In this document: in pieces, positions 6,101 through 52,398 of the stretch
Numbering within the stretch: the first letter of the stretch is position 1
How the letters are laid out: each line of letters begins with the position of its first letter
NCBI GenBank assembly: GCA_016214905.1
Contig: JACRMQ010000007.1
Location: 522,408-586,407, forward strand
DNA: 64,000 nt
DNA from: Ignavibacteriales bacterium
Lineage (GTDB): Bacteria > Bacteroidota > Ignavibacteria > UBA10030 > SZUA-254
Direction of reading: 5' to 3'
Position numbers and translations under genes: made by a program
Notes under the pieces: generated by a model
Told to the model about the DNA's origin: nothing
The model's database searches: none
What the model saw: only the letters and a program-made list of their open reading frames with translations

Positions 6101-6574
6101 ATGACGACAAACCAAGCACCCAATATCGTTTTAAAATATCAATCTTATATTTCGGCGCATCATTTTCGTACGTTGCTTTGGAATATTCTTCTCGGCGTGG
6201 AAGTTTCGGTGGTTTTAATCTCATATCATTTCATCTGGCACTCGTTCAGATCTGATTTGATTCAGCTTTATGTTTTAAGCGGAATGAGTATTTCATTTTT
6301 CTGCTGGGGCGCGGATCGATTTTGGGTTACCATTATTTCACCATTGACGAACGATCCTTTTTCATCATCAGCTTACATTTCCAGAATACCTTTGTGGTGG
6401 TTAGCAGGTGGGATAGGTTATGTATCCGGAATTGTATTATCAAAAATATTTTTTCCTATTGATTTTTATGAAGTTCCGATAAAAATATATTTCTTTGTCG
6501 GAGCATTTGCGGGAATATTTTCACAGCTAACGATTCAGATTCGAGTTTACAGAATTTTACAATCAAACAAATGA
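6101..6574 (+). CDS. Hypothetical four-helix membrane protein
   Basis: The 157-residue protein has four hydrophobic segments at about residues 26-46, 52-70, 96-115 and 126-147, with short polar ends. There is no signal peptide, cofactor motif or recognisable family. It starts 2 bases after the preceding stop and is followed after 10 bases by a 63-codon gene, so it sits in the middle of an apparent operon. Function unknown. Confidence 0.55.
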   Translation: MTTNQAPNIVLKYQSYISAHHFRTLLWNILLGVEVSVVLISYHFIWHSFRSDLIQLYVLSGMSISFFCWGADRFWVTIISPLTNDPFSSSAYISRIPLWWLAGGIGYVSGIVLSKIFFPIDFYEVPIKIYFFVGAFAGIFSQLTIQIRVYRILQSNK

Positions 6575-6584
6575 GGAAATATAA

Positions 6585-6776
6585 ATGACGAAAGTTGAAC
6601 AGCATAAAATAATAGATTTGTTAAGAGATTATCTACACAAAATGAGTGGAAGCGACATGGACGATTTTGAGATGTTGCGCAAACGGGATCGCGATGACGA
6701 AGACTTGGATACATTCGGAAGAAGAAGATTATCGGAATTATATGTAAAATATGTTCCTGATCGTTTTAGAGATTAA
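6585..6776 (+). CDS. Small acidic hypothetical protein (63 aa)
   Basis: The reading frame has a good ribosome-binding site (GAGGAAATATAA before ATG) and starts 10 bases after the membrane protein gene. The product is soluble, helical and highly charged (DMDDFEMLRKRDRDDEDLDTF in the middle), ending YVKYVPDRFRD. It resembles no family known to me. The ribosome-binding site, spacing and absence of competing frames support it as real. Confidence 0.5.
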   Translation: MTKVEQHKIIDLLRDYLHKMSGSDMDDFEMLRKRDRDDEDLDTFGRRRLSELYVKYVPDRFRD

Positions 6777-6853
6777 TTTATATCTTCTTCAAAAAAATTT
6801 GTTCAAGATTTTGTATATTTCACAATTCATTTTTTTGATTAATTAGGATCTGT

Positions 6854-7945
6854 ATGTCGATTACTTTGAAGCGAGTTGGAATACTGACAGGTGGCGGAGA
6901 TTGCCCCGGATTGAACGCGGTCATCCGCAGTATCGCGAAACCGGCGATGTCGTATTTTAATTCGCATGTTATAGGTATTTTAGACGGATTTGAAGGATTT
7001 GTTGAAGGACGTATGCGAGAGCTGACTAAACTCGATGTTACGGGAATTATCAACCTCGGAGGAACAATTTTAGGAACTTCAAATAAAGGAGATCCATTTC
7101 ATTATCCCCGCGAAACATCGAATGGCGTTTCGATAACCGATTGTTCCGATATGGTACTCGACAGTTACCGACAATGGGGGCTTGACGCTCTGATCGCTAT
7201 TGGCGGCGACGGTACAATGAATATCGCTCATAAACTCGCGCAAATGGGAATGAACATTGTCGGTGTTCCCAAGACCATCGATAACGACTTAGAGGCAACC
7301 GATATTACATTCGGGCATGATTCCGCTCTTCAGGTTGCAACAGAAGCAATCGACAGGTTGCAGACAACTGCATCTTCACATCATCGGGTTATTGTTATAG
7401 AAGTGATGGGTAGATATGCGGGTTGGATCGCATTGGGAGCAGGTTTAGCCGGCGGTGCGGATGTAATTTTAATTCCTGAAATTCCATTCAAGTGGGAATC
7501 AATTTTTAATTTTGTTTGGAAACGAAGTAAAGGCGCGCGCTACAGCATCATTTGCGTTGCCGAGGGGGCAAAACCGGTTAACGGTGATATAGTTATAAAA
7601 GAAAAAGATTTAAAACGAACCGATCCGATCAGGTTAGGCGGTATCGGCGAACTGGTTGCGGCGCGAATAGAGGAAGAGACAAAGTTAGAGACTCGCGTTA
7701 CCGTGTTGGGGCACGTTCAGCGCGGCGGCAGTCCGTCGGCATTTGACAGGATACTGGGTACAAGATTCGGCTCCATGGCATTACAGGCGGCTTCGCGTGG
7801 TGAATTCGGTACTATGGTTAGCTTACGCGGTCGCGATGTTGTAACGGTGAAATTAGAAGATGCAATCCGTAAACAGCGGCTTGTTTCTCCGGAATCCCAG
7901 CACGTTCTTGCGGCGCGGGCTGTGGGAGTTTGTTTCGGAGATTGA
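6854..7945 (+). CDS. pfkA: 6-phosphofructokinase
   Basis: This enzyme catalyses the committed step of glycolysis, phosphorylating fructose 6-phosphate. The 363-residue protein carries the phosphoryl-donor loop GGGDCPGLNAVIR (13-25), GGDGT (117-121), the catalytic PKTIDND segment with D143 as general base, and the substrate-binding MGRYAGWIAL and LGHVQRGGSPSAFDR motifs. The residue matching E. coli Gly104 is Gly120, which favours ATP. The residue matching Gly124 is Lys140, as in many PPi-linked and group III enzymes. The G/K combination is usually ATP-dependent in characterised actinobacterial enzymes, so ATP is the likelier donor. The start fits the family N-terminus; a 77-base AT-rich spacer precedes it. 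Confidence 0.93.
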   Translation: MSITLKRVGILTGGGDCPGLNAVIRSIAKPAMSYFNSHVIGILDGFEGFVEGRMRELTKLDVTGIINLGGTILGTSNKGDPFHYPRETSNGVSITDCSDMVLDSYRQWGLDALIAIGGDGTMNIAHKLAQMGMNIVGVPKTIDNDLEATDITFGHDSALQVATEAIDRLQTTASSHHRVIVIEVMGRYAGWIALGAGLAGGADVILIPEIPFKWESIFNFVWKRSKGARYSIICVAEGAKPVNGDIVIKEKDLKRTDPIRLGGIGELVAARIEEETKLETRVTVLGHVQRGGSPSAFDRILGTRFGSMALQAASRGEFGTMVSLRGRDVVTVKLEDAIRKQRLVSPESQHVLAARAVGVCFGD

Positions 7946-8001
7946 TAAGATTGTGATATTGTTCCATTGAATCATTGTATGATTAAAGTATAAGTGAATC
8001 A

Positions 8002-45286: not shown

Positions 45287-46156
45287 ATGAAACGATTGAT
45301 AGGAAATTATTTCCCAATTATTCTTCTCGCCATAAGTTGTTTTGCGATCATTGTCTTGACGTTTAATGGCTGGAATTATTATGATACCCCGGTTGCGTTA
45401 AGGGCATTCCGGCCGGATTATCAGAGCATGAAACCTTCAGGGATTTTCAGTCATGCACTTGGAATTGCGGGTTCGCTAATGATAATTATCGGCGTGGTTT
45501 CATATTCAGTTCGTAAAAGAATCCGCAAGTATCGTTCACTTGGTTTGTTATCAAATTGGTTACATATTCATATAATTCTTTGTTTACTTGGTCCGATATT
45601 TATCATCTATCATACTACATTCAAGTCGGGCGGTATTGCTGCGATCACTCTCTGGACTATGCTTTCGGTAGCAATCAGCGGAATAATCGGTCGATTTTTA
45701 TATGTTCTTATCCCGCGCAATCTCAATGGCACTCAACTGACAATGGGAGAAATTGAATCGGAGATGAAGAGGATCGCTGAAGTTTTGCAAGGATACCCTG
45801 TTGGAATATTTTTGAGTCAAACGATTGACAAATCATTTTCTGGATTTCAACCCCCCCGAACTTTCTGGCAAACAATAGCAACGATAATCCGGCTTGAAAA
45901 ATCGAAGATTCAAGTGCGAGGTAAAATTAACGAAATCTTATCATGGAATAAAATCGCCCCCGAAGCCGCTCTGCCTCTCAAACAAGCCGCCTTAGAGAGG
46001 GCAGCGTTAACGCAAAAAAAGTTTTTGCTGGGACAGGTCGAGAGGTTCTTTCATAATTGGCACCTTATTCATTTACCGTTTACAATTATTATGTTTGTTA
46101 CGCTCATCGTTCATGTTGTTGTTGTAATTCTACTCGGGTATAGATGGATATTTTAA
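45287..46156 (+). CDS. Membrane cytochrome b-like protein
   Basis: The 289-residue protein has five predicted helices (about 7-27, 52-73, 92-112, 118-142, 263-285). Histidines lie in or near the helices: H56, H93, H95, H109, H256, H259, H262 and H276. This suggests a b-heme membrane protein such as a quinol-cytochrome oxidoreductase or ferric-reductase-like unit, although it matches no named family I can confirm. A polar, helical domain (about 145-255) lies between helices 4 and 5. It is the first gene of an operon in which the next four genes overlap their neighbours or follow closely. Proposed role: exchange electrons between the quinone pool and the periplasmic multiheme cytochromes. Confidence 0.65.
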   Translation: MKRLIGNYFPIILLAISCFAIIVLTFNGWNYYDTPVALRAFRPDYQSMKPSGIFSHALGIAGSLMIIIGVVSYSVRKRIRKYRSLGLLSNWLHIHIILCLLGPIFIIYHTTFKSGGIAAITLWTMLSVAISGIIGRFLYVLIPRNLNGTQLTMGEIESEMKRIAEVLQGYPVGIFLSQTIDKSFSGFQPPRTFWQTIATIIRLEKSKIQVRGKINEILSWNKIAPEAALPLKQAALERAALTQKKFLLGQVERFFHNWHLIHLPFTIIMFVTLIVHVVVVILLGYRWIF

Positions 46157-46164
46157 TTTTTCAA

Positions 46165-47826
46165 ATGATTAAAACATTTTTCTCAAAGATAACCTGGTAC
46201 TTGTTTTTCTATCGGTTAATTTTTTTTGGATTCATTACATCCAATTTATTTGCCCAATTTTCACCTGGTGATCTATCAAATTCTCACCGGCAACTGGAGG
46301 GTTCAGAGAATTGCACAAACTGCCATGAAGTGGGAACCGAAATCAGTGGGGCGAAATGTATATCCTGCCATTTGGAAATTCAACTTCTCAGGAAGAAAAA
46401 ACACGGTTATCATGGCATAACTGCAGTTGGATCTTGTGTAGAATGTCATAAAGAACATTTAGGCCGCGAATCAAAAACAGTCCTCTTCGAAGAGAGCAAA
46501 TTTGATCACGTCAAAACCGGATTTACTTTATCGGGGAAACATTCATCGCTCGGTTGCTCTAAGTGCCATTCTTCGGCATACCGCAAAGATACGGCCTTAA
46601 TGAAAATTCTGGAAAAAAGTAATCGTAAAACTTATCTCGGTTTAACTCAGACTTGTTATTCTTGCCATTCCGATCCTCATAAAGACAAGTTTGGTAAGGA
46701 GTGTTCTTCGTGTCATACTTCGGCGGGATGGAAAAATGTAAACCGCTTCGATCATACTCGTACAAAGTTTCCACTTATTGGTAAACATCAACAAGTGAAA
46801 TGCGATAAATGTCATCCATCAATGAACGAGAAAAGCAACGATGGTAAAATCACTTTGATAAAAAATGATTTTGCTGATTGCAAATCGTGCCATCAATCTC
46901 CGCACAACTCATTGTTGAACGAGAAAATATGTTCGAGCTGTCATGCGCCGGTGGGATGGGCGGATGCATCGAATAATCAGTTCAATCATGACTTCACCCG
47001 TTATAAACTTACGGGTATGCATAAAGAAGTAAGATGTGAGAAATGCCACCCTGTGAATGATAAACAGGATTTTAAATCACGCTTTAAACGAGATTATAAT
47101 AATTGTACAGATTGCCATATCGATAAGCATGATGGAGTATTTCTAAGCGCTTATAAAAATGATTGCTCGGTATGCCATTCTCTTCACGGATTCAAGCTGA
47201 GCACTTACCCGCAGGAAAAACACAACGCTACACATTTTCCGCTGACCGGAGCGCATGCTGCTGTACCATGTAATGGTTGCCATCGTAAAAAAGAATCTGA
47301 GTTTCCCGTATTTCGTTTTACAACTATTTTGTGTGAATCGTGCCATAAGGATATTCATGCAGGCGCCTTCACTTCGATGATGAAAGAAAAAAGTTGTGGA
47401 AATTGTCATATCACAACAGGATGGAGAGATGCGTCTTTTGATCATTCAACCACCGCATTTCCGCTCACAGGTCGTCATAAAAACATTGGATGTGCGAAGT
47501 GCCATAAATCCGGCGATATTTTATCGGGTAAAGTTGTTTTTCAAAAAATACCATCAGGTTGTGAATCGTGCCATGCTGATGCGCATGCAGGGCAGTTTAT
47601 TGACTCCGGTAAAACAGACTGCTTCAAATGCCATACGGCTGAAGGTTGGAAATTGCCGATCTTCAATCACGAAACACAAAGTAAATTTAAACTCACTGGT
47701 AAGCATTTAAGTGTAACATGCTCATCATGTCATAAAACTGTGAAAGACGGGAAAGTGCAATTTATTCGTTTTAAACCTTTGGAAACTTCCTGCGAATCAT
47801 GTCATCAAAAAGGGATCATCCAATGA
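46165..47826 (+). CDS. 20-heme c-type cytochrome
   Basis: Twenty CxxCH heme-binding motifs are visible from CTNCH to CESCH near the C-terminus, spread over 553 residues. The ATG at 46165 gives a normal signal peptide (MIKTFFSKI through SNLFAQ); an ATG at 46144 overlaps the upstream gene by 13 bases and adds an acidic residue at position 2. Many motifs are preceded by FDH..T.F.L.G.H, where the extra His residues could be distal heme ligands. The protein is periplasmic or surface-exposed after Sec export. It is probably an electron wire between the membrane cytochrome b and the outer-membrane partner. Its stop overlaps the next start (ATGA at 47823-47826). Confidence 0.88.
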   Translation: MIKTFFSKITWYLFFYRLIFFGFITSNLFAQFSPGDLSNSHRQLEGSENCTNCHEVGTEISGAKCISCHLEIQLLRKKKHGYHGITAVGSCVECHKEHLGRESKTVLFEESKFDHVKTGFTLSGKHSSLGCSKCHSSAYRKDTALMKILEKSNRKTYLGLTQTCYSCHSDPHKDKFGKECSSCHTSAGWKNVNRFDHTRTKFPLIGKHQQVKCDKCHPSMNEKSNDGKITLIKNDFADCKSCHQSPHNSLLNEKICSSCHAPVGWADASNNQFNHDFTRYKLTGMHKEVRCEKCHPVNDKQDFKSRFKRDYNNCTDCHIDKHDGVFLSAYKNDCSVCHSLHGFKLSTYPQEKHNATHFPLTGAHAAVPCNGCHRKKESEFPVFRFTTILCESCHKDIHAGAFTSMMKEKSCGNCHITTGWRDASFDHSTTAFPLTGRHKNIGCAKCHKSGDILSGKVVFQKIPSGCESCHADAHAGQFIDSGKTDCFKCHTAEGWKLPIFNHETQSKFKLTGKHLSVTCSSCHKTVKDGKVQFIRFKPLETSCESCHQKGIIQ

Positions 47827-49493
47827 TACGATTTATTATATTCGCCATATTAGTTAGCGTGACAAACCTCCACGCACAAAAGTCGCAATCTCCTCACGGA
47901 AAACTAAATCGATCTTGCGGAGAATGTCATTCAACTGACTCCTGGAAGATGGGTGATAGTACAAAATTTAATCATAATTCTACAGGTTTTTCTCTCGTAG
48001 GATACCACAAAAATGTTCAATGTAAATCTTGCCACAAAGATCTGAATTTCATACGCCAAAATTCCGAATGTACCGCCTGTCATACCGATGTTCACAGAAC
48101 CGAATTGGGTAAAGAGTGTAAACGTTGCCACGATATGAATTCATGGATAATCACGGATATGAAACAGAAGCACCAGGGAACTAGATTTCCATTACTCGGT
48201 AAGCATGCTTTGTTGGATTGCGGTGCGTGTCATGAGCGTGCATCAGTATATCGTTTTGCGGGAACACCGATCACTTGTATAGGTTGTCATGAGCGTGATT
48301 ATAAAATGACAATCAATCCAAGTCATGCAAAAGAATTATTCTCGGTTGACTGCCGGAATTGTCATAATTTTACAGCTTCAAGTTGGGGTGGAAGTTTCGA
48401 TCATTCGCTGACTTCCTTTCCTTTAACCGGTGCACATCGTGCGGTAATTTGTACGCAATGCCATAAGAATAATCAATTCAGAAATATTTCAAGTGAGTGT
48501 TACAATTGCCACTTAACAGATTTCACAACCGCTGTTTCATTTGATCATGTTTCTGCGGGAGTGAGCCATGCATGCCAGATTTGTCATTCAACCAATGCTT
48601 GGAGTCCGTCAACGTTTAATCATGCTTCTACAAAATTTAATCTAACCGGTAAACATACAACCATTTCTTGTCAATCATGTCACATCAACGGTAATTACCT
48701 GCTGGTCTATAGCGGTTGTTATTCATGCCATCAGACCAATTATCAGAATGCGAACAATCCGAACCATATTACCGGAGGGTTTAGCACCGATTGTTCTCAA
48801 TGTCATTCTACAACTTCATGGCAACCGGCAACGTTCGATCATTCTACGACAAAATTCGATTTGACAGGTAAACACAAAACAATTACATGCCAATCGTGCC
48901 ATGTAAACAGTAATTACCAACTTGTTTACAGCGGTTGCTACTCTTGTCACCAGAACGATTATCAGAATTCGAGTAATCCGAATCATCTTACAGGAAACTT
49001 TGGAACAGATTGTTCAAAATGTCACTCTACCGATTCATGGAGTCCGGCAACATTCGATCATTCGGTTACAAAATTCCAGTTAACTGGTAGGCATACATCT
49101 ACATCTTGTCAATCATGCCACACAGGCGGAAATTATCAACTTGCATATACTGACTGTTATGCTTGTCATCAGGATGATTACGTTCGGCCAACAGATCCTA
49201 ACCATGCAGTTGCTAATTTCCCGCATGATTGTGCACCATGTCACTCAACATCAGCATGGTCGCCATCGACTTTTAATCATGATCAGCAATATTTCAGAAT
49301 AAATTCAGGAACGCATCAGGGGAAATGGTCGCTCTGCACAGATTGTCACACCACTCAGTCCGATTACAAACAATTTTCATGCATTAATTGTCATGAGCAC
49401 AATCAAACAGAAATGAATGCAAAACATACAGATGTCGGTAATTATGTTTACTTGAGTTCCGAGTGTTACAGATGTCATCGGAATGCACAATGA
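47823..49493 (+). CDS. 22-heme c-type cytochrome with three-heme repeats
   Basis: From the ATG at 47823 the product has 556 residues, a signal peptide (IRFIIFAILVSVTNLHAQ) and twenty-two CxxCH motifs from CGECH to CYRCH. The middle is a tandem array of 73-residue units, each with three hemes and the order CHST..W.P.TF.H, LTGKH, CQSCH, YSGCYSCHQ. Sec export and heme attachment should place it in the periplasm or outside the cell. The start overlaps the preceding stop and its own stop overlaps the next start (49490-49493), indicating translational coupling. Together with the upstream gene, 42 heme sites are encoded. Confidence 0.9.
   Translation: MIRFIIFAILVSVTNLHAQKSQSPHGKLNRSCGECHSTDSWKMGDSTKFNHNSTGFSLVGYHKNVQCKSCHKDLNFIRQNSECTACHTDVHRTELGKECKRCHDMNSWIITDMKQKHQGTRFPLLGKHALLDCGACHERASVYRFAGTPITCIGCHERDYKMTINPSHAKELFSVDCRNCHNFTASSWGGSFDHSLTSFPLTGAHRAVICTQCHKNNQFRNISSECYNCHLTDFTTAVSFDHVSAGVSHACQICHSTNAWSPSTFNHASTKFNLTGKHTTISCQSCHINGNYLLVYSGCYSCHQTNYQNANNPNHITGGFSTDCSQCHSTTSWQPATFDHSTTKFDLTGKHKTITCQSCHVNSNYQLVYSGCYSCHQNDYQNSSNPNHLTGNFGTDCSKCHSTDSWSPATFDHSVTKFQLTGRHTSTSCQSCHTGGNYQLAYTDCYACHQDDYVRPTDPNHAVANFPHDCAPCHSTSAWSPSTFNHDQQYFRINSGTHQGKWSLCTDCHTTQSDYKQFSCINCHEHNQTEMNAKHTDVGNYVYLSSECYRCHRNAQ
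48573..49229 (+). repeat. Three exact 219-bp tandem repeats encoding three-heme modules
   Basis: The first Cys codon of the unit falls at 48573, 48792 and 49011, then 49230 begins a partial fourth copy; spacing is exactly 219 bases each time. Each unit encodes 73 residues with three CxxCH motifs. Confidence 0.9.
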
Positions 49494-51094
49494 AAAGTTT
49501 TGTTTCCATCTTTTTCTCTTTTATTTTTGCCTTGACCATGTACGCGCAGAATTCAATGGTCAAAGGCCGTATTATATATATTTCATCAGGGACTGTTTAT
49601 ACATCACTGGGAAGAGATGCAGGTGTTAGGGATTCGACACTAATTACCGTTCTATCAGGAAAGGATACTATCGCAGTTCTGAAAGTTTTTGCCACGAGTT
49701 CAAAAACATCGGTCTGCACTATTCTTAATAAGAAAAGAGATTTAAGAGTTGGAGATGCATTGATATTTATCCCGTCCATAAGTGAAACAAAAAGTTTATC
49801 AATCGATCGTCTTAAGGAAACTAAAGCTGGTTCCACACCTGTAATTATTCAAGCTGAATCTAACGGTATTGATAGCGTCGAATTGCGATCTCCAAGTTGG
49901 TTACAAATCCATGGTTCAGTAGGACTTCAATATCAAGGGACTACTTCTTCAGGGACTAATTTTAAATATTCTCAATCTGGTGGAATCATCAATCTTAACG
50001 GCAAATTGACTGATGTTCCGATCTGTTTTGATATCTACGCGAACCTTAGGCATTTATCGCGGTATACTCTAAATCCTTTTTCTTCCGAAGGTATCGATCA
50101 ATCGAGAATTTATAGATTTTCATTATCATTCAACGATGGGACCAATATCATATCCATAGGACGAATTGCACCCCCGCACTCACCGGGAATCGGATATATT
50201 GACGGTTTATTGGCTCTCAGAACTTTTGGTGATTTGACATTCGGTTTAGCTGCGGGATTTGAACCCGGCTATACACAGCGAACATTTTCATCAAATATTA
50301 AAAAAGCGGCTGTATTTGGATCCTATTCCTCAAACAGCATGTTGCAACCGTTTTTAAATATTTCTTATGCTCGAACTTATTACGGTTCACTTCTTAATCG
50401 TGAATCTTTAAGCGGGTCATTCAGAATCTTTCCTTTTGAACGACTGAGTATTAGCACGCTGTGCGATATTGATTTGCGAATGAAATCTGAGACGGAATAT
50501 ATTTTATCACCGAAACCCTCTATTTTCAATGCGAATGTAGATTACCGTTTTCCATCCACGGTTGCCATCGGTGCAGGTTTAGTTATGTGGAGACCGTCCT
50601 ATTCATTCACTTCGATCCGAACAATCCCGGATTCTCTGCTTGATTTAAAAATTCGTACTACACCAAATCTTAATATTAATATTTGGTTACCGCATGGCAT
50701 ATCAATTTATAATAATTACTCACCACGCCTGGTCTCCGGTCAACTTGGTAAAGAATATTTAAATTATTCTTCAATTACTTTTTCAAATGCTTTTAATTCC
50801 GGTTTCATATCGCAGTTTTCTTTGTCATTGAACTCGGCAGAATATTCCAAGTCGAAAATTTATGGATTGAGCGTGCAGAAAAATATTTTCAATTTGTTTG
50901 ATGCATCGCTACGATATCATATGAATCAGAATACGATTTTACGAACGAGTGACTTATTTATGTACAGATCATATTCATTAGACATTTTCACAAGTATTTT
51001 CAATTCTGTAACGTTGTGGGGAAGTGTGGAACATTTTGTCGGTTATCAATCTAAAGGTTATACATTTCTCGCCGAAATCCGCAAGAAGTTCTGA
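49490..51094 (+). CDS. Outer-membrane beta-barrel protein of the cytochrome operon
   Basis: The start at 49490 overlaps the preceding stop and begins a signal peptide (KSFVSIFFSFIFALTMYAQ). The 534-residue product then has a small beta domain of about 90 residues (VKGRIIYISSGTVYTSLGRDAGVRDSTLITV, resembling FlgT C-terminal or OB-like strands). A barrel region with many alternating strands follows, from about residue 140 (SWLQIHGSVGLQYQG) to the end FLAEIRKKF. Position next to two large multiheme cytochromes suggests a porin that sheathes a cytochrome wire through the outer membrane, as MtrB or PCC porins do. No sequence resemblance to those porins is visible. One base is shared with the next gene. 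Confidence 0.7.
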   Translation: MKSFVSIFFSFIFALTMYAQNSMVKGRIIYISSGTVYTSLGRDAGVRDSTLITVLSGKDTIAVLKVFATSSKTSVCTILNKKRDLRVGDALIFIPSISETKSLSIDRLKETKAGSTPVIIQAESNGIDSVELRSPSWLQIHGSVGLQYQGTTSSGTNFKYSQSGGIINLNGKLTDVPICFDIYANLRHLSRYTLNPFSSEGIDQSRIYRFSLSFNDGTNIISIGRIAPPHSPGIGYIDGLLALRTFGDLTFGLAAGFEPGYTQRTFSSNIKKAAVFGSYSSNSMLQPFLNISYARTYYGSLLNRESLSGSFRIFPFERLSISTLCDIDLRMKSETEYILSPKPSIFNANVDYRFPSTVAIGAGLVMWRPSYSFTSIRTIPDSLLDLKIRTTPNLNINIWLPHGISIYNNYSPRLVSGQLGKEYLNYSSITFSNAFNSGFISQFSLSLNSAEYSKSKIYGLSVQKNIFNLFDASLRYHMNQNTILRTSDLFMYRSYSLDIFTSIFNSVTLWGSVEHFVGYQSKGYTFLAEIRKKF

Positions 51095-52398
51095 TGGAAA
51101 CTGTAATCTCTTTTCTCATATTTATATTTCTTATCCTTATTATAGCCGTGCCGTACTGGCTTATCGCCGGGAAAAAGAAAAAGGTGAACAGGCAGGTGTA
51201 TGAAAAAAATGTCAATGCCGGCATAACCGCGCCAGCAACACTTCATCCCCAGATAGATATGATGTTTTGCATAGGTTGTGGTGGATGCGTTAGAGCATGC
51301 CCCGAAAATGTACTTGGCATGGTCAACGGTAAACCTACGATTATTAATGGCGCCAGATGCATAGGTCATGCTCTGTGCGTGGATGCCTGTCCGGTTGCCG
51401 GTATTACTATGGGCTTTGGAAAGCCCAAGAGAGGCATGGAAATTCCGTTCTATGATGAAAATTACCAATCAAACATAGAAGGTCTTTACATTATTGGTGA
51501 GCTTGGCGGTATAGGTCTTATCAGGAATGCCTTCTCGCACGGAATAAAAGCAATAGACCACATAACTTCAAATTTTCAATCCAATAATGAAGATGACACT
51601 GATATTGCCATAGTCGGTGCCGGACCTGCAGGAGTTGCAGCCGCGCTCAGAGCCAAGCACCATAAGTTTCGCTCTATCATCTTCGAGCAGGATGACCTTG
51701 GTGGTTCGATTCTTCACTACCCACGAAAAAAAATCGTATTGACATCGCCTATCGATCTGCCTCTATATGGAAAATTAGATGTTTCCGAAATAAGTAAAGA
51801 AGAATTACTCGACCTTTTTCAGGATCTCGTTCAAAGGTTTGAGCTTGATGTTCGCACAGGTGATAAAGTTATTTCGATCCGTAAAGACGGGAACCGTTTC
51901 CAAATTTCAACCGTTACCGGGAAATTTAACGTCTCAAAAGTTGTTCTCGCAATCGGAAGGCGCGGAACCCCCCGTAAATTGAACGTACCGGGAGAAAATT
52001 TGCCAAAAGTGTTTTACCGGTTATTTGAAGCAGAATCTTTTACAAACAAACATATCCTGGTTGTGGGTGGAGGTGATAGCGCCATCGAAGCCGCGGTAGG
52101 GCTCGCACGTCAAACTGGTAATAAAGTCACGATCAGTTACCGGAAAGAAGAATTTTTCAGATTGAAAGAGCGCAATGAAAAAAACATTCGGGAAATGGAA
52201 AAAGAAAAAAAAATTAATGTAATATTTCAGTCGCAGGTTATCGAGATACAGGCAGAGAGTATTTTGTTAGAACAAGTTAATACCGGACAAAAAGAAATTA
52301 AGAACGATTTTGTGTTTGTTTTTGCGGGCGGAGAATTGCCGTCGGAATTTTTAAAACAGGTGGGTGTTAAACTCAGAACAGATGAAATGGAGAAATGA
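51094..52398 (+). CDS. Membrane-anchored ferredoxin-flavin NAD(P)-dependent oxidoreductase
   Basis: The 434-residue protein has an N-terminal helix (residues 4-24) followed by basic residues, so its body faces the cytoplasm. Two ferredoxin-type motifs follow: C59-C62-C65-C69 complete, and C89-H92-C95-C99 with His in place of the second Cys. A flavin-dependent disulfide-reductase-like fold comes next, with the FAD loop VGAGPAGVAAALRA near 174 and the NAD(P) loop VVGGGDSAIEAAVG near 325. Proposed role: feed electrons from NAD(P)H into the membrane, or the reverse, in partnership with the cytochrome b. ATG overlaps the upstream stop (TGATG at 51092-51096). Confidence 0.82.
   Translation: METVISFLIFIFLILIIAVPYWLIAGKKKKVNRQVYEKNVNAGITAPATLHPQIDMMFCIGCGGCVRACPENVLGMVNGKPTIINGARCIGHALCVDACPVAGITMGFGKPKRGMEIPFYDENYQSNIEGLYIIGELGGIGLIRNAFSHGIKAIDHITSNFQSNNEDDTDIAIVGAGPAGVAAALRAKHHKFRSIIFEQDDLGGSILHYPRKKIVLTSPIDLPLYGKLDVSEISKEELLDLFQDLVQRFELDVRTGDKVISIRKDGNRFQISTVTGKFNVSKVVLAIGRRGTPRKLNVPGENLPKVFYRLFEAESFTNKHILVVGGGDSAIEAAVGLARQTGNKVTISYRKEEFFRLKERNEKNIREMEKEKKINVIFQSQVIEIQAESILLEQVNTGQKEIKNDFVFVFAGGELPSEFLKQVGVKLRTDEMEK

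Follow-up and report, generated by a model that had tools for sequence, protein, structure and literature searches.

A predicted PCC3-type porin-cytochrome cluster with a ferredoxin-flavoprotein partner in an Ignavibacteriales genome

Introduction

The PCC3 type of porin-cytochrome cluster, as described by He et al. (2017; PMC5566968), consists of a porin, an extracellular cytochrome with a median of 34 hemes, a periplasmic cytochrome with a median of 21 hemes, and an inner-membrane protein carrying SGxxG and two WX3HX13H motifs (PMC5566968). A five-gene set assigned to this type was analyzed in a 64,000-nucleotide stretch of an Ignavibacteriales genome (assembly GCA_016214905.1, contig JACRMQ010000007.1, positions 522,408 to 586,407), hereafter the window. 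The genes for an inner-membrane b-type protein (CytB), two multiheme c-type cytochromes (MHC1 and MHC2), an outer-membrane barrel and a ferredoxin-flavoprotein (FNR) fill positions 45287-52398 of the plus strand in this order.

An earlier sequence-only reading of the window had held that the set does not resemble PCC-type systems. This does not stand: the set matches PCC3 by its CytB motifs and by a related porin. The same reading singled out the membrane-anchored ferredoxin-flavin oxidoreductase, and that is indeed the new point. The PCC3 family itself was already known; new are the FNR subunit, the fusion of FNR with CytB, and the apparently permuted fold of FNR.

Results

CytB (45287-46156, plus strand) has 289 aa, is predicted to hold two b hemes in the inner membrane, and is the counterpart of the PCC3 "IMP." A motif search of the window protein found SGIIG and two WX3HX13H motifs. 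Residues H95, H109, H262, and H276 were invariant in all 24 aligned homologues. Weak Pfam matches below the cut-off were seen among 24 homologues for DUF4405 (10), Ferric_reduct (PF01794; seven, best E 4e-4), and Ni_hydr_CYTB (six); the window CytB itself matched none of the three families, sub-cut-off matches included. A PDB sequence search with the CytB profile gave chance matches only.

Ten loci from the order of a record labelled Methylophilaceae (L035), an order that we take to be Burkholderiales in GTDB, served for comparison. These Burkholderiales-type loci were called PCC3 by gene content and not by name. Each contained FNR and a CytB, and all 10 CytBs carried the PCC3 inner-membrane signature. 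Nine of the 10 had a 24- or 27-heme cytochrome, and the second cytochrome had 11-62 hemes where complete. Eight loci reached far enough to show an open reading frame (ORF) of 583-894 aa at the porin place, and in five of these eight the window barrel profile matched it (E 1.9e-10 to 2.7e-7).

The window set is like PCC3 in the SGxxG and paired WX3HX13H motifs of the inner-membrane protein, in a cytochrome of about 21 hemes (20 here), in a second cytochrome of variable heme number (22 here), and in the porin. It differs in porin size: the barrel here has 534 aa and 22 predicted strands, the ORFs at its place in the Burkholderiales-type loci have 583-894 aa, and for published PCC3 porins, "most" of which are large, as many as 42 strands are predicted (PMC5566968). 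A very large porin, which the 22-strand model lacks, is a frequent and not a defining trait of PCC3. It also differs in having FNR within the operon, whereas four genes are named in print (PMC5566968, PMC10734462). An FNR partner was unnamed in the text of the published PCC3 descriptions checked; figures, supplements, preprints, and most subscription papers lay outside this search. Because the CytB signature, the cytochrome set, and the related porin all match, the window set is, judged by its sequences, a PCC3-type porin-cytochrome cluster.

Two further kinds of conduit share the general plan: MtrCAB and MtoAB as a porin with a periplasmic cytochrome, and the Geobacter OmbB-OmaB-OmcB conduit likewise. 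The Geobacter entry proteins are CbcL, ImcH, and CbcBA, and to our knowledge neither these nor OmbB-OmaB-OmcB include an NAD(P)H flavoprotein. The MtrA/DmsE decaheme type was rejected, as MHC1 scored 52.8 bits against a TIGR03508 cut-off of 192.2 and the cytochromes here have 20 and 22 hemes rather than ten. The OmbB-OmaB-OmcB type was likewise set aside on heme counts, 20 and 22 here against published counts of 8 and 12 (PMC4245776).

FNR (51094-52398, plus strand; 434 aa) is a ferredoxin joined to a flavoprotein and anchored by a transmembrane (TM) helix. Named genomes were scanned with a five-row FNR alignment, and among the best 80 of 108 relatives 42 loci were used (L015-L055 and L059), the rest matching parts only. 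These 42 loci were labelled Ignavibacteria/Bacteroidota, Kryptoniota, Neomarinimicrobiota, Calditrichota, Zixibacteria, Acidobacteria, Planctomycetota, Nitrospirae, and Proteobacteria. Within this selection from the best 80, CytB was found at 29 loci, the barrel at 33, a cytochrome of at least 10 hemes at 35, and all three at 22; many of the loci end at contig ends. Thirteen loci were without CytB: two (L018 and L042) gained one from other scans, nine lie on short or cut contigs, and two (L043 and L045) had none in reach. Further loci from the window's own phylum had all five genes in one block in 11 of 12 cases, L148 among them with its MHC1 split over two frames; the remaining locus had a broken CytB alone. 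The five-gene set is thus kept together across many phyla, a check that the sequence-only reading had proposed.

Three genome samples (247, 300, and 246 genomes) were tallied for the pairing of FNR and CytB. Altogether, 72 of 72 genomes with a full-type FNR also contained CytB. In the own phylum (Bacteroidota, 247 genomes), with full-length FNR taken as E below 1e-150, FNR was present in 20 genomes, each with CytB on the same contig and strand at a distance of 33 bp to 9.1 kb. The tally for FNR comprised 28 genomes; eight with only the flavin core, in frames of ~810-910 aa, were not counted, and one of these eight (G140) had a broken CytB. CytB matches occurred in 68 genomes of this sample, 21 of them at E <=1e-60, and most others were short relatives. 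Separately, many genomes from one family (f20) had short open frames of ~190-250 aa that matched CytB by profile (E ~1e-11 to 1e-15) and may encode a related small b cytochrome.

The order of L035 (300 genomes) contained FNR in 17 genomes and CytB in 19, and all 17 FNR genomes had CytB. The two genes stood back to back, 256-466 bp apart, in 16 of the 17; in the remaining one they were 8.4 kb apart on the same strand. Two weak CytB matches (E ~1e-30) came without FNR.

The phylum of L050 (labelled Planctomycetota, 246 genomes) had CytB in 35 of 35 FNR genomes. Its 49 FNR copies comprised 24 fused to CytB in one frame (20 genomes), 21 within 10 kb of CytB, and four without CytB on the contig. 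These counts derive from 38 genomes and 59 matches, from which ten matches were left out (nine flavin cores in longer frames and one partial). The omission removed G608, G720, and G743, of which only G743 has CytB; G742 has CytB and no FNR match. Pairs on one contig within 10 kb accounted for 37 of 37 in the first two samples and, fusions included, for 45 of the 49 FNR copies in the third. A structure model of the L050 fusion reached a predicted local distance difference test score (pLDDT) of 82.9 and a predicted template-modelling score (pTM) of 0.68. The planctomycete fusions are strong evidence that FNR and CytB work as one unit. A CytB-FNR pair was also seen in a Nitrospirae record (L036, 6933-9299), whose genome has nine CytB-profile matches.

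FNR matched Pyr_redox_3 and Fer4 in Pfam and carries the motifs CxxCxxCxxxC, CxxHxxCxxxC (Cys3His), GAGPAG, and GGGDSA. Its cysteines lie only at positions 59, 62, 65, 69, 89, 95, and 99; with none after C99, the flavin part is without a redox CxxC. The first cluster motif, CxxCxxCxxxCP, was present in the window protein and 36 of 42 homologues, the second ligand being Thr, Ser, or Ala in the other six, and its second Cys was Ser in all 10 members of one further FNR set and in 9 of 11 members of another. The second cluster motif, CxxHxxCxxxCP, was kept in 42 of 42 and 21 of 21 FNRs. Since positive residues follow the N-terminal helix, the bulk of FNR would be cytosolic.

The flavin part was nearest to YpdA/Bdr and TrxR-type NADPH enzymes. 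R350 was invariant in 20 of 20 aligned sequences, at a position that we take to be that of the phosphate-binding Arg of TrxR. The protein is like TrxR-type ferredoxin-NADP+ reductases and YpdA/Bdr in fold and in its FAD and NADPH motifs. Unlike them, it has its own N-terminal TM helix and ferredoxin domain, an FAD-closing segment placed in front, and no later Cys. From these features FNR probably feeds in electrons from NADPH, which is a likelier donor than NADH.

Residues 114-163 of FNR matched the C-terminal FAD segment of PDB flavoproteins in 36 cases (best E 0.011, none significant alone). Thirty-five of the 36 were FAD enzymes, either GR/TrxR/GltD-like or fumarate reductase-like, aligned in their later part. 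The FAD-closing segment stands before GxGxxG in FNR and after the NADPH domain in TrxR and GR, and the FNR chain stops where TrxR continues. Because 114-163 matches a late FAD segment and the chain ends early relative to TrxR, the flavin part looks circularly permuted. The same permuted core, without the ferredoxin part, was also found in longer frames (~700-1500 aa) of own-phylum and Planctomycetota-phylum genomes, so the permuted order appears wider than the PCC3-type system.

MHC1 (46144-47826, plus strand; 560 aa, likely start 46165) and MHC2 (47799-49493, plus strand; 564 aa, likely start 47823) are c-type cytochromes with 20 and 22 CxxCH motifs, counts that reproduce those first reported, and would bind as many hemes. 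Every Cys of MHC1 (40) and MHC2 (44) sits in a CxxCH, leaving no spare Cys for a lipid anchor in either. Residue shuffles (1000 each) gave means of 0.21 (MHC1) and 0.30 (MHC2) CxxCH with a maximum of three, and elsewhere in the 64-kb window there was no frame with two or more. MHC1 matched Cytochrome_C7, Cytochrom_c3_2, and other cytochrome families above the Pfam cut-off and had no match in a PDB sequence search. MHC2 matched Cytochrome_C7, and its CxxCH spacing recurs as 32/16/25.

Heme counts of homologues were made with eight cut ORFs left out; L143 repeats L042, and L033 and L034 are near copies. Complete MHC1-like proteins (n=42) had 20 hemes in 27 cases and 17, 20, 23, or 26 hemes in 37. 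Leaving aside the Burkholderiales kind, MHC2-like proteins of more than 12 hemes ranged from 13 to 64 hemes, with 3n+1 hemes in 29 of 35 and a repeat of ~73 residues. MHC2 lengthens by whole triheme modules and MHC1 is nearly fixed, as would be expected of MHC1 if it spans a set gap. Repeats with at least one heme were already noted in PCC3 cytochromes by He et al. (PMC5566968). MHC1 is probably the periplasmic or barrel-entering wire and MHC2 the outer wire.

The barrel gene (49490-51094, plus strand) encodes 534 aa from ATG 49490 and ends in a C-terminal Phe. An AlphaFold2 model from 31 sequences (pLDDT 82.4, pTM 0.63) has 22 predicted strands at 138-533, a small N-terminal beta domain, a disordered linker, and no large plug domain. 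Structure comparison (VIA-align) aligned 349 residues with the 22-strand TonB receptor PirA (Z 19.2, root-mean-square deviation 4.0) and, tied with these receptors, 286 residues with 18-strand Occ porins (Z 18.8). Fold searches likewise returned 22-strand receptors, ushers, and 18-strand porins at tied Z. MtrB was not among the matches listed, which is uninformative either way. By standard barrel geometry, 22 strands place ~40 A between backbones, so a cytochrome could fit in principle. A barrel with no room for a heme protein had been named as fatal to the conduit idea; the barrel-only model, 22 strands wide and without a large plug, does not point that way. In the nearest named relative among the matches listed (L022, FNR 77% identical) the barrel gene is split into two ORFs (6397-8001), by frameshift or assembly error.

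All five ORFs are present as first reported. The set is flanked by pdxB upstream and a DUF4153 gene on the other side. Start codons were picked by judgement from the sequence. The CytB stop at 46156 and the MHC1 ATG at 46144 give a 13-nt overlap; ATG 46165 is the better signal-peptide start for MHC1 and leaves a gap of 8 nt. MHC1 and MHC2 overlap by ATGA at 47823-47826 (longest MHC2 ORF from 47799), MHC2 and the barrel by ATGA at 49490-49493 (longest barrel ORF from GTG 49463), and the barrel and FNR by TGATG at 51094. Overlaps thus occur at three of four junctions with realistic starts, as first reported, and at all four with the longest ORFs. The reported observation is confirmed as real.

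The host genome also had three matches to heme-copper oxidases, and further multiheme genes were numerous, so a PCC3-type conduit would be one of several electron routes. On contig C5 (117000-129000; L112, 5091-8470, minus strand) a 436-aa barrel stands with 12-heme and 8-heme cytochromes. These heme counts equal those of Geobacter OmcB and OmaB, and the host perhaps has a second, OmbB-type conduit. On contig C7 (212000-230000; L110, 5631-18001) 4-, 13-, 19-, 6-, 8-, and 7-heme proteins occur with ferredoxin-like, multi-TM, and small membrane genes, in what we take to be a cluster reminiscent of HMC/Qrc-type mosaics. Another site on C7 (120000-129000; L116, 2633-7013, minus strand) has three successive genes, for proteins with 4 hemes, with 401 aa, and with 14 hemes.

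Discussion

The evidence inclines us, if only mildly, toward a PCC3-type conduit that NAD(P)H feeds through a module in the cytosol and in which electrons flow outward. At the cytosolic face, FNR would take a hydride from NAD(P)H, more likely NADPH, onto its FAD. From there single electrons would travel by way of its two Fe-S clusters to CytB, whose two b hemes would carry them across the inner membrane. MHC1, with its 20 hemes, would then take them over the periplasm into the 22-strand barrel, and MHC2, built of triheme modules, would hand them to something outside. NADPH is a low-potential donor, and outward flow would fit its potential together with those of TrxR-type FNR flavins. For these flavins values of -0.240 and -0.285 V are published. 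The trans-envelope conduit of the sequence-only reading is upheld as the best reading of genes conserved as a set, while its function in living cells is something we infer.

Several observations weigh against this picture. CytBs fused to FNR are without the SGxxGR motif. The second Cys of the first cluster motif is replaced in many FNR homologues, so this cluster may vary. In the Methylophilaceae-order sample FNR lies on the strand opposite CytB in 16 of 17 genomes, the FNR of L043 has no CytB in reach, and the L036 pair has no CxxCH in its 15-kb stretch, so that CytB-FNR may serve other acceptors. Inward flow has also been proposed for PCC3, from a donor outside the cell to quinone (PMC5566968), and in iron-oxidizing cells of Sideroxydans sp. 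CL21 a rise was reported for the inner-membrane gene of PCC3 copy 2. Both PCC3 clusters of S. lithotrophicus ES-1 were reported down on Fe(II), so the published expression data, as far as these accounts go, point both ways.

In a rather unlikely alternative, the same conduit has CytB exchanging mainly with the quinone pool, FNR being a side input or regulator, or NADPH and quinol sharing the wire. CytB weakly resembles diheme b families, some of which we take to be quinone-linked, and in one sample FNR and CytB are transcribed separately in 16 of the 17 genomes, which would suit a side role. The 24 fusions among 49 planctomycete copies and the constant pairing elsewhere nevertheless make FNR a direct partner of CytB, although a quinone link is the published PCC3 hypothesis (PMC5566968).

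An inward conduit is improbable. Electrons given up outside the cell by Fe(II), Mn(II), a cathode, or a partner cell would enter through MHC2 and MHC1 and leave CytB-FNR as NAD(P)H or reduced ferredoxin. Reduction of NADP+ from an Fe(II)-like donor is thermodynamically uphill, the more so against the membrane potential, and the fall of the ES-1 clusters on Fe(II) also speaks against it. On the other side stand the occurrence of PCC3 in iron oxidizers and its proposed role in iron oxidation (PMC5566968), the reported rise of the CL21 gene, and the capacity of multiheme wires to run both ways, as described in print for Mto/Mtr.

It is very doubtful that no electrons cross the outer membrane, with the barrel serving as a substrate channel and MHC1 and MHC2 as reductases or electron stores within the periplasm: surface placement is indeed conjectural and both cytochromes lack a Cys free to take a lipid anchor, but the barrel is constantly beside the cytochromes, MHC2 changes length by modules as a wire would, and 28 (MHC1) and 26 (MHC2) amino acids per heme lie near the published PCC3 median of 26 (PMC5566968).

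Returning to the outward NAD(P)H-fed conduit, its inner-membrane end resembles NADPH oxidases and ferric reductases (NOX, FRE) in that two b hemes would be held by two HX13H pairs, with the part for NAD(P)H and FAD in the cytosol. The HX13H likeness of the PCC3 inner-membrane protein to these enzymes has been noted (PMC5566968). Unlike theirs, the flavin part here is of the Pyr_redox_3, YpdA/TrxR type with Fe-S clusters and not plant-type ferredoxin-reductase-like, and electrons would go to a multiheme wire where those enzymes reduce O2 or chelated Fe(III). Tentatively, PCC3 overall could be an NADPH-to-surface wire that bypasses the quinone pool, functionally a trans-envelope NADPH oxidase common to many phyla.

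PCC3 has often been listed as a possible iron oxidase; its function is putative and its inner-membrane end has been a guess. First described in Proteobacteria, the type now also takes in records labelled Ignavibacteria/Bacteroidota, Calditrichota, Neomarinimicrobiota, Zixibacteria, Acidobacteria, and Planctomycetota. A constant and sometimes fused NAD(P)H-type partner gives the inner-membrane end of PCC3 a testable identity and points to quinone-independent flow, and the natural single-chain FNR-CytB fusions offer an easy way into its biochemistry. If the NADPH-to-surface wire is real, it would join a flavoprotein that is permuted and bears clusters to a surface wire growing by whole triheme modules.

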